Below, one piece after another: positions 28,382 through 41,404 of a stretch of 64,000 bases of DNA; position 1 is the stretch's first letter, and every line of letters starts with the position of its first letter. This DNA is from Lachnospiraceae bacterium (GTDB lineage Bacteria > Bacillota > Clostridia > Lachnospirales > Lachnospiraceae). A program made the translations under genes and the position numbers. The notes under the pieces were generated by a model. The model was given only the letters and a program-made list of their open reading frames with translations, was not told the origin of the DNA and searched no databases. The stretch is taken from NCBI GenBank assembly GCA_022766245.1, contig JALEPL010000033.1:23069-87068 (forward strand), read 5' to 3'.

Positions 28382-28576
28382 TATCAGAAGAAGATGCCTG
28401 GGATGTGCGACACTCCTGCATTTTTGAACCTACATTTACTTTAAAAGGGATTCCTATATCGGCAATTGGATGTCAGGCCTCCGTTAGCAGTGGAAGACAG
28501 AAGGTTGCGTGCGGTCACCCACCTAGCTGTGGCTAGGAGTCAAAATTGCAGGAAACGGCATTTTGGGTCTTCTACG
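28382..28576 (+). ncRNA. ssrS: 6S RNA (probable)
   Basis: TATAAT at 28370-28375, then AGAAGATGCCTGGGATGTGCGAC...CATTTTTGAACCTACATTT...GTGGAAGACAGAAGG...GGTCACCCACC...GGCATTTTGGGTCTTCT; closing AGAAGA/TCTTCT stem; no ORF. Confidence 0.7.
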
Positions 28577-31939: not shown

Positions 31940-32208
31940 TGGCTATAAGAAAATGCTTAGATGGTGAGCAGTAGGCGGATATGCTTTTTTCAGAGAGAGA
32001 GAATCGTTGGCTGAAAGTTCTCTTAAGGTAAGGTGTCAGCTGAATTTCACACCGGAGCAGCGCAGGGGAAGATAGAAAAGTAAGTAGTCTGCGACGTTCA
32101 TACACGTTACGTATTTGAGAGTCTGTTAAAATGACAGGAATCAGGGTGGTACCGCGGAGTATATTCGTCCCTAGGAAGGGATGAGTATCCTCTGCGTTTT
32201 TTCTTTTT
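31940..32208 (+). promoter_or_regulatory. T-box riboswitch, probable Phe specifier (TTC)
   Basis: AGGGTGGTACCGCGG at ~32143-32157 followed by a terminator hairpin (CGTCCCTAGGAAGGGATG...TTTTTT); candidate specifier TTC at 32046-32048; upstream of pheS. Confidence 0.9.
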
Positions 32209-33299: not shown

Positions 33300-35720
33300 A
33301 TGTTAGCACCGTTAAGTTGGTTAAAGGAATATGTAGATATTGATGTTACTCCGAAGGAATTGGAAGAAAAGCTTTTTTCCTGCGGATTTGAAGTAGAGGA
33401 ATTGATTGAAGTTGGCAAAGATGTCAGTAATGTGGTGGTAGGACAGGTGGAGTCCTGCGAGCCGATTCCAGAGACCCATCTGAATGTTTGCCAGGTTAAT
33501 GCCGGAGAACACGGTACGTTCCAAATCTGCTGTGGAGCAGATAATGTCAGGGCCGGAGGTAAGTTCCCGTTGGCTTTGATTGGAGCTACTGTATATGCTA
33601 CGGCAAAGGATCATGTGACTATTGAGGGAGTCATGAAGATTAAAAAGGGCAAGCTGAGAGGATATGAGTCTTTCGGTATGCTCTGTTCCGGCACGGAACT
33701 TGGATTGAGTGAAGATCTCTATCCGGGCGCAGGATACAACGGACTTCTGGTTCTGCCGGAGGATGCACCGGTGGGCGCAGATGTAAAGCCTATTTTGGGA
33801 ATGGATGACTGGATTTTTGATATTGCAATTACAGCAAATCGTCCGGATTGTCAGAGTATTTATGGAATAGCCAGAGAAGTGGCCGCTGTGTTAGGCAAGG
33901 AGTGTCGGGAGCCGGCACTGGATTATACCGAGACGGATGTGGAAAGAATACCATTTTCTGTCTGCGTAGATGCACCGGATATCTGCCCGCGATATATTGC
34001 ACATTATGTGTATGATGTCGAAATCAAAGAGTCGCCGGCATGGATGAAGCGCAGACTGGCTTTGGTGGGATGTTCTTCTATCTCCAATGTGGTAGATATT
34101 ACGAACTACGTGTTAAAGGAACTGGGTCAGCCTATGCATGCCTTTGACAATAATTATCTGGAGCAGGATCGGATTCAGGTGAGACGGGCAAATAATGGGG
34201 AGAAGATTGTGACTTTAGATGAGAAAGAGTTTACCCTGAATGAATCCAATCTGGTGATTTGCGATGGAGTAAAACCAGTTGCTTTAGCAGGTATTATGGG
34301 TGGTCTGAATTCTGAAATCAAAGACGATACCACGGAGGTCATGTTTGAGTCTGCCAAATTTGCGCGAGATAATATCCGTAAGAGCTCCCGCGCATTAGGA
34401 CAGGCTTCTGATTCCAGTGCCCGTTATGCGAAGGGTGTGGACGAGTACACCACAGTGATGGCCATGAAACGTGCGCTGCATTTGATTGAGGAACTGGGTT
34501 GCGGTAAAGTATCTAAGACTCATGTGGATATCAATACGGGAAATTCCATCGAGCCTCATGAAATGAAGGTAAGTGTCAGCCGTGTGAATGGTGTGCTGGG
34601 TATTACCGTTCCTACAGAGGAGATGACTCGGATTCTGACTGCACTGCAGTTTGCACCGGTGATTGATGGGGATGAGCTGACCATCCGGATTCCGGCATAC
34701 CGTGAAGATATGGAGTCCTATCCGGATGTGGCAGAGGAAGTAATCCGTATGTATGGGTATGACCATGTGATTCCGACCTTTATGCCATCAGCAAAGGTTA
34801 CTATGGGAGGACTGAATTTAAGACAGAAGAGTGAACTGAAAATCAAACGAGCGCTTTGTGGCGCAGGTGCGTATGAGGCAATTCATTATTCTTTCTTCTC
34901 ACCATCTGATTTGGATTTGCTGCGTTTACCTGAAGACGCAAAAGAACGTCATGCAATCCAGCTCATGAATCCTATTAATGTGGATCTGTCACTGATGCGT
35001 ACCACTTTGGCATCAGAGATGATTTATGCCATCGGACGAAATCAGAAGAAGGGGAATTTGGAGGGACGTCTCTTTGAACTGGGAAATATTTTTATCCCTA
35101 AGGATTTGCCCCTTACAGAGTATCCGGACGAGAGAGAGACGTTATGCGTCGGTGTGTTTGGTGAAAAAGAGAGCTTTTTCACTTTGAAGGGATTAGCTGA
35201 GACAGTGGCAGACACGCTTGATGTAACCTTTACCTATGAACCTGTCACAAAAACATTTCTGCATCCTTACCAGACTGCTGCTGTATTCTGTGAAGGATTG
35301 GAAGTGGGATATTTGGGTAAACTGAGTTATGAGATTCAGGACGAATTGGATATGCGTATGCCTGCTTACATCATGGAACTGGATCTTCGAGTATTGTCTC
35401 AGTGGTATGGCAAGGAGCAGGTCTTCCAGCCATTACCGAAATATGAGGAAGAAAAGCGTGATTTTGCCTTTGTGGTGGATAAGAATATTACCTGTGCCCA
35501 GATTGAGAATGGTATACGGGAAGCCTGCAGCTATGTGACAAATGTGCATCTGTTTGATGTTTACGAGGGAAAACAGTTGGCTGAAAACAAAAAGAGTATG
35601 GCATTTTCCGTAGTGTTTACCCCCCGTGAAGAGGAGTTTACCAATGAGTTGGTGGAAGGCTTTGTGGCAAAGATTTTAAAGAATCTGGACAAAAAACTGG
35701 GCGTGACCTTACGTGCATAG
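33300..35720 (+). CDS. pheT: phenylalanyl-tRNA synthetase beta subunit
   Basis: 806 aa; tRNA-binding domain, GYESFGMLCSGTELGLSED, TANRPDCQSIYGIAREVAA. Confidence 0.97.
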   Translation: MLAPLSWLKEYVDIDVTPKELEEKLFSCGFEVEELIEVGKDVSNVVVGQVESCEPIPETHLNVCQVNAGEHGTFQICCGADNVRAGGKFPLALIGATVYATAKDHVTIEGVMKIKKGKLRGYESFGMLCSGTELGLSEDLYPGAGYNGLLVLPEDAPVGADVKPILGMDDWIFDIAITANRPDCQSIYGIAREVAAVLGKECREPALDYTETDVERIPFSVCVDAPDICPRYIAHYVYDVEIKESPAWMKRRLALVGCSSISNVVDITNYVLKELGQPMHAFDNNYLEQDRIQVRRANNGEKIVTLDEKEFTLNESNLVICDGVKPVALAGIMGGLNSEIKDDTTEVMFESAKFARDNIRKSSRALGQASDSSARYAKGVDEYTTVMAMKRALHLIEELGCGKVSKTHVDINTGNSIEPHEMKVSVSRVNGVLGITVPTEEMTRILTALQFAPVIDGDELTIRIPAYREDMESYPDVAEEVIRMYGYDHVIPTFMPSAKVTMGGLNLRQKSELKIKRALCGAGAYEAIHYSFFSPSDLDLLRLPEDAKERHAIQLMNPINVDLSLMRTTLASEMIYAIGRNQKKGNLEGRLFELGNIFIPKDLPLTEYPDERETLCVGVFGEKESFFTLKGLAETVADTLDVTFTYEPVTKTFLHPYQTAAVFCEGLEVGYLGKLSYEIQDELDMRMPAYIMELDLRVLSQWYGKEQVFQPLPKYEEEKRDFAFVVDKNITCAQIENGIREACSYVTNVHLFDVYEGKQLAENKKSMAFSVVFTPREEEFTNELVEGFVAKILKNLDKKLGVTLRA

Positions 35721-39800: not shown

Positions 39801-39884
39801 ATGACAAACGGATTTCCCATATTTTTCCCTTGACAAAAGAAGTGTGCAGGCTTTAGCATAAGGTGGATGACAGGAGGAATAATA

Positions 39885-41054
39885 ATGTCGCAGCATATAA
39901 AGAACTATAATTATAGAGAAATTGAAAATAAATGGGAACAGAGTCTCTCGGATGCCGGAACAGAGGATGAGGGAGCCTCGGAAACGTACTATAAATGTCA
40001 GTGTATGCCGATTTTACAGCCACAGGAAATCTCTGTGGCTGATTTTCGTGGACGGCTGCTGGCAGATGTGTGGGCCAGATATCGATGTATGCAGGGTGAG
40101 GATGTGCTGAGTCTTCCGGATGATGTGACCATGAATCAGGATGCAGTACAGTGGATCGAGCCTGTTATAGGACGTTTGGAATGCGAAGGATACCTGCTGT
40201 GGGAGAAGGAGGAGGGAGAAAACATCTATGGAACATTGCTTCTGGAGCACTACATAGATGCGTTGAAGAAGGATTTATCTTTGGTGATGATACCGGAGTC
40301 TGTGGCCAATATGCAGTTGGATTGGCTGAATCGCTCCGATAGAATTGTACTTAGGAATCCCAGGGAACAGATTTTTCTTGCGCTCCAATTTTTGTATGGG
40401 CAGGGAGAGGGAGTACGTTATCGCCCAGTGGATTTTTATGTGAATGGAACGACTCATGCGACTCGACGCCTGATATTAAGCCGTTTTCTGTCAAAAGTTC
40501 TTTATGATTGGAATATGGTGGATTTCAAAGAACCCTTTCTGGAGATTGTCAGTGTGGGAAACATTACCGGAGAGGACGGAAAAAAGATGGATTTTGCCCG
40601 GGGGAATGCAGTAAATCCGGTATTTTTGGAAAATGACTATGGAAAGGATGCATTGCGTCTTTATTTATTGTTTGTGGCACCCATGAGACAGGATTTTGCA
40701 TGGGATGAGGATGGTCTGGAGGGAATCTATCATTTTCTGACGAAGCTATGGAATCTGGTGGCAAATGGTAATGACTTGTCGGAGTCTGTTACGAAGGAAC
40801 AGCAGGAATTATGCAGGGAAATGACGGAGGTACTGTCTGACCGTTATCTGCAGTATAAGTTTAATACAGTTGTCTCGGGTCTGATGGAATATAATAATCG
40901 AATGATACGATTGGCCAGAGAAGGTGCGCTGGAAAAAGCGACGGTGGAGTGTTACCTGAAATTCCTGGCACCCTGCGCACCTTACCTGGCTCAGGAGTTA
41001 TGGCACATGTTGGGAAATGAGTCATCGCTTCTGCATGGTTTGCATCAGCATTAG
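39885..41054 (+). CDS. degenerate leucyl-tRNA synthetase-like protein (class I aaRS paralog, no editing domain)
   Basis: Motif-by-motif LeuRS resemblance (NYREIENKWEQ; LLADVWARYRCMQGEDVL; VDFYVNGTTHATRRLILSRFLSKVLYDWNMVDFKEPF; NAVNPVFLENDYGKDALRLYLLFVAPMRQDFAWDEDGLEGIYHFLTKLWNLV) but HIGH and KMSKS positions are altered. Confidence 0.8.
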   Translation: MSQHIKNYNYREIENKWEQSLSDAGTEDEGASETYYKCQCMPILQPQEISVADFRGRLLADVWARYRCMQGEDVLSLPDDVTMNQDAVQWIEPVIGRLECEGYLLWEKEEGENIYGTLLLEHYIDALKKDLSLVMIPESVANMQLDWLNRSDRIVLRNPREQIFLALQFLYGQGEGVRYRPVDFYVNGTTHATRRLILSRFLSKVLYDWNMVDFKEPFLEIVSVGNITGEDGKKMDFARGNAVNPVFLENDYGKDALRLYLLFVAPMRQDFAWDEDGLEGIYHFLTKLWNLVANGNDLSESVTKEQQELCREMTEVLSDRYLQYKFNTVVSGLMEYNNRMIRLAREGALEKATVECYLKFLAPCAPYLAQELWHMLGNESSLLHGLHQH

Positions 41055-41303
41055 CATACGATCTGCCTTTTTTCGTTCTGCTTCACTCATGTTCTGCTTG
41101 AGGAGTTCGATGAGCAGAGCGGTTTCGGCAGAGGAAAACTGGATTCCCTGTCTTTTCGCCTGGCTTGCTGCGCCGGCAATGGAGGATGCAGCGCTCTGAT
41201 TGTCTTTGCAGTTGGCTTTTTGGGCGAATTCCAGAATAAAGTCGAGCTTTTCTTTGGAAATATTCTGCAGTGCTGGGTTATTCTCTAAAAAATCTAAATT
41301 CAT
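41022..41303 (-). CDS. conserved hypothetical protein
   Basis: MNLDFLENNPALQNISKEKLDFILEFAQKANCKDNQSAASSIAGAASQAKRQGIQFSSAETALLIELLKQNMSEAERKKADRMLMLMQTM; start at 41303 with SD. Confidence 0.75.
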   Translation of the reverse strand: MNLDFLENNPALQNISKEKLDFILEFAQKANCKDNQSAASSIAGAASQAKRQGIQFSSAETALLIELLKQNMSEAERKKADRMLMLMQTMQKR

Positions 41304-41404
41304 GCTTACCTTCCTTTTTATATTCTTTTTCTCCCTTTTCGGATTTGTGTTTCTGAGAATAATATATGAAAATTCATTCGAGAACACTTTTCTGAAAAGG
41401 GAGT

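Follow-up and report, generated by a model that had tools for sequence, protein, structure and literature searches.

The locus at 39885-41054 (+) of the window, the 64,000-nucleotide stretch of Lachnospiraceae DNA that we analyzed, raises the question of why a gene descended from LeuRS, the synthetase that charges tRNA-Leu, should have lost its catalytic signatures and still be open. The ORF, hereafter P0001, encodes 389 aa without an internal stop or frameshift, and it matches both the LeuRS model TIGR00396 (E = 4e-46, far beyond chance) and the LeuRS structure 3ziu in the PDB (E = 3e-33); on this homology, its derivation from LeuRS is beyond doubt. Its score on TIGR00396 (157.5 bits) falls below the NCBIfam curated cut-off of 548.4. 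Overall, the sequence comparisons described here make it probable that P0001 is a displaced ancestral leuS, which lost catalysis and has been retained by selection as a non-catalytic protein of ~390 aa.

A Shine-Dalgarno sequence, AGGAGG (39872-39877, +), is separated by 7 nt from the start codon at 39885, and a promoter-like TTGACA-18-TAGCAT element, recognized by consensus match only, is present at 39830-39859 (+); a second in-frame ATG is found at 39867, 18 nt upstream of the first. Two relatives in the genus, G003 (locus L057) and G004 (L058), have a TTGACA-16-TAGAAT element upstream of leuS and an AGGAGG upstream of its start, and both carry AGGAGGAAT. We regard the region upstream of P0001 as a candidate promoter and Shine-Dalgarno sequence of the leuS kind. 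At its other end (41022-41054, +), the ORF runs antisense into the end of a convergent gene (41022-41387, -). An assembly artefact is unlikely, given that P0001 lies mid-contig on an 87 kb contig and its flanks are syntenic.

The anatomy of P0001 was derived from an alignment to 32 LeuRS proteins of the family, using LeuRS reference numbering and taking the names of deleted domains from established LeuRS anatomy (all coordinates in this paragraph are on the + strand). Residues 1-72 (39885-40100) correspond to LeuRS 1-73, comprising the N-terminus and the first Rossmann part, with 33% identity; residues 82-109 (40128-40211) correspond to LeuRS about 129-155, with weak conservation; and residues 118-151 (40236-40337) correspond to LeuRS 195-228 (YADRL..MQTDWIGKS), with 41% identity. 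The next 26 aa, residues 152-177 (40338-40415), are of uncertain origin and replace LeuRS 229-526. The best-conserved block, residues 178-383 (40416-41033), aligns with LeuRS about 527-732 at 44% identity and comprises the second Rossmann half and the anticodon-binding helical domain. About 410 LeuRS residues are deleted, and the large internal deletions are all in frame. P0001 is without (i) LeuRS ~80-126, which forms part of the ATP site (DAFGLPAENYA...), (ii) LeuRS 156-193, the zinc hairpin, (iii) most of LeuRS 229-526, which holds the CP1 editing domain and neighboring segments, (iv) the WGEPIP segment, and (v) the C-terminal tRNA-binding domain, the last 68-74 aa of the reference being gone. 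Among the catalytic signatures, the HxGH (HIGH) site has changed from HVGH to SVAD (residues 50-53; 40032-40043) and the KMSKS site to KMDFA (residues 234-238; 40584-40598); K234-M235 of the latter survive, as does the GGVEHA His. The absence of CP1 does not strictly set P0001 apart from active LeuRS, because 3ziu, a 637-aa LeuRS that we take to be the Mycoplasma mobile enzyme, lacks this domain too. The initial annotation had described a LeuRS-derived ORF of 389 codons with a Shine-Dalgarno sequence, SVAD in place of HxGH, no KMSKS, and no editing insertion; each of these points is borne out, and the alignment adds the further deletions listed above.

A near-perfect hairpin at 40017-40041 (CAGCCACAG...CTGTGGCTG; 9 Watson-Crick pairs, 10 with G-U; folding z = -3.5) sits exactly on the lost HIGH motif, and a stem as long was seen in only 6 of 500 codon shuffles. 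It is possible that the motif was overwritten here by a template-switch (quasi-palindrome) mutation, or that the hairpin acts as a weak attenuator.

The genome that carries P0001 (G000) also contains, as the initial annotation had wished to see confirmed, a full leuS of another type (type C) at a different locus, G000:C4:382-2787(-), in which the HIGH and KMSKS motifs are both intact. In the genus, G003 and G004 have a full-length type A leuS between the same flanking genes as P0001; G002, G006, and G007 have a type B leuS after the same upstream gene; and G005, also with type B, has the same downstream genes. Type C LeuRS is common to G000 and G001, away from the old leuS locus, and its relatives at 70-82% identity are scattered across other genera of Lachnospiraceae. 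These two genomes are sisters in a species tree of concatenated neighbor genes (100/100), and in G001 the old leuS has been cleanly excised, leaving the two flanking genes almost abutting. In a tree of the best-conserved block, P0001 groups with type A LeuRS, with a 100/100 branch between type A and types B and C, and its own branch length is 3.62, where ordinary genes of this lineage have 0.15-0.28. By virtue of this synteny and this tree, we identify P0001 as the displaced ancestral leuS in place; the gene order and phylogeny show a history of displacement in which the original, vertically inherited leuS stayed at its native locus. They also led us to reject P0001 as a fresh duplicate of the resident LeuRS.

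In our reading of this history, a horizontally spread type C LeuRS was gained in the common ancestor of this gut-type species (G000) and G001 and took over tRNA-Leu charging. The sister G001 then deleted the old leuS. In G000 the gene shrank by in-frame deletions to under half its length, and with them went catalysis, the CP1 and zinc modules, and the domain at the C-terminus that grips tRNA. What selection would have retained is a foldable protein that combines the second Rossmann half and the helical bundle of the anticodon domain with N-terminal pieces.

Several further observations concern the synthetase genes of this group. In one family genome, G053, for which the contamination estimate is 8%, a type A and a type C LeuRS, both full-length, occur side by side (L085, L087), possibly as an intermediate of displacement. 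T-box leaders precede the type B leuS of G006 and G007 (L062:5178-5396; L060:7853-8064) and may have come along with that gene; at gathering score, none was found on the type A or type C leuS of the genus, and T-box control of the old leuS was rejected as a candidate, there being no such leader upstream of P0001 or type A leuS. Within the window, pheT (33300-35720) shares 81% identity with that of G001 but only 38% with its counterpart at this locus in G003 (59% for pheS), which suggests that members of the genus have exchanged another synthetase close to leuS as well. A T-box leader lies upstream of pheS at 31949-32175, and a 6S RNA is present at 28392-28573.

The competing explanation that survives best, although we consider it unlikely, is that P0001 is a decaying pseudogene, redundant since the type C LeuRS came, drifting, and by chance still open. 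We simulated neutral evolution under a simple mutation model from five type A leuS genes (150 runs each, 750 in all) to the observed divergence of P0001; the selection statistics rest on the single P0001 sequence, with one genome per species. The simulated genes acquired 15-18 stop mutations on average, and at least 6 in every one of the 750 runs, whereas P0001 has none, and its frame has survived several deletions. Its substitutions are also more conservative than neutral ones (mean BLOSUM62 of about -0.2 compared with about -0.6), a level reached in only 0-1 of 150 runs per starting gene, on an optimized alignment that may slightly favor matches. Hydrophobic columns are retained at 86%, as opposed to 75% under neutrality (1 of 400 runs), and change at second versus first codon positions is 0.37 versus 0.51, with neutral values of 0.35 versus 0.39. 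The synonymous codon score of P0001, which was outside the training set, is 0.134, inside the range of neighboring genes (0.116-0.165, these genes having served for training too) and not decayed to the -0.145 +/- 0.034 that would follow if codons tracked base composition.

Other results are those that a pseudogene would give. LeuRS-invariant columns are retained at 47% in P0001, no better than the 49% of the neutral runs, and we take this loss at the neutral rate to mean that LeuRS function was lost early. Synonymous sites are saturated (pS 0.69-0.84), which makes dN/dS uninformative here; the pN/pS of P0001 does not fall below that of the neutral runs and does not reject neutrality. The long branch and the deletion of the locus in G001 also favor decay, as does the C-terminal truncation into the neighboring gene, since an end in a neighbor's antisense sequence is as expected of erosion and counts against a selected protein. 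Moreover, no P0001 ortholog above ordinary LeuRS was found among 8 genomes of the genus and several hundred of the family and order (one genome per species), and none of 66 other family genomes with type B or C LeuRS carries a type A remnant, one of them having both full forms. AlphaFold, run on a shallow alignment, gave P0001 a pLDDT of 36, and a genuine LeuRS fragment used as a control fared equally poorly (pLDDT 42), so that the low score of P0001 speaks neither for nor against decay. Weighing these results, we infer from the statistics that the reading frame has been under selection: P0001 has remained intact and gene-like far longer than expected of a dead gene, and the simplest reading is that during most of its divergence selection was maintaining a protein able to fold, and that it was not a pseudogene.

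A less probable variant holds that P0001 was a useful repurposed or auxiliary protein, kept long after LeuRS function was lost, from which selection has been lifted only recently, so that decay is just starting. It would reconcile the signatures of selection with the presence in one species and the ragged C-terminus, but the sole available P0001 sequence carries no inactivating change. That P0001 still activates or senses leucine, as a leucyl-adenylate or leucine sensor in the manner of LeuRS-I, is very improbable. Its LeuRS ancestry, GGVEHA His, and K234-M235 speak for this reading; against it, the HIGH motif, the SKS of KMSKS, part of the ATP site (LeuRS ~80-126), the WGEPIP segment, and the CP1 region are gone, and LeuRS-invariant positions show no preferential retention. 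Editing is likewise unlikely.

The proposal of a repurposed synthetase fold made in the initial annotation accordingly holds in part. Its view that this is not a fresh pseudogene agrees with the missing stops, the conservative substitutions, the hydrophobic columns, and the normal codon usage, and the scattered frameshifts that it named as contrary evidence are absent; the lack of an ortholog outside the strain, named likewise, is what we found within the genomes searched. Its suggestions that P0001 might sense leucine or modify a different substrate find no support, given the alteration or deletion of HIGH, KMSKS, the ATP/leucine-site segment, zinc, and CP1, together with the neutral loss of invariant residues.

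Returning to a selected, non-catalytic protein as the preferred reading, the most likely guess at its role, by analogy and in itself doubtful, is that of a tRNA- or protein-binding factor acting in the mode of SLIMP. Non-catalytic synthetase paralogs are usually attributed to duplication. It is possible, if short of probable, that a housekeeping synthetase displaced by a foreign copy turned, at its own locus and inside a single species lineage, into a non-catalytic protein selected for something new; P0001 would then be the birth of a pseudoenzyme caught early and brought about by horizontal displacement, not gene duplication. The genus displays the route at one locus: some members keep the complete ancestral gene, others have another type in its place, one has excised it cleanly, and one retains a reshaped remnant. 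If P0001 is made and needed, it shows how an essential enzyme, once displaced, can supply the material from which a new protein arises; otherwise, it offers a clean benchmark for how long a dead ORF looks alive.

Compared with known systems, P0001 resembles bacterial type A LeuRS (L057/G003, L058/G004) in its locus, in its leuS-like candidate promoter and Shine-Dalgarno sequence, and in sequence, with 44% of residues identical across the anticodon-binding domain and the second half of the Rossmann fold, and differs in lacking both catalytic signatures and the zinc, CP1, and C-terminal modules, with a score far under the family cut-off. The LeuRS-I of Sulfolobaceae, whose CP1 is disrupted and whose C-terminus is divergent, still binds tRNA-Leu and forms leucyl-adenylate, and a low charging activity persists in LeuRS2 of Halobacteria (PMC9437257). 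P0001, like these, derives from LeuRS and accompanies a complete LeuRS; it is not of their kind, because they keep catalytic steps and tRNA binding, whereas P0001 is without catalytic motifs and under half length. In Halobacteriales, three divergent LeuRS forms are scattered by horizontal transfer within one group, much as in the group of P0001; the abstract of that study describes the copies as LeuRS forms, with no mention of a non-catalytic remnant at a displaced locus (PMC3436685). SLIMP, an inactive mitochondrial SerRS paralog, performs no aminoacylation and is kept for another role (PMC9437257). It is class II and eukaryotic, with known tRNA binding and partners, whereas P0001 is known from sequence alone and from one species, so that the cross-species conservation of SLIMP-like proteins is not seen. 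P0001 nevertheless fits the description of an aaRS derivative that has lost its catalytic motifs and coexists with a full aaRS and, like SLIMP, it is non-catalytic and putatively kept for another role.
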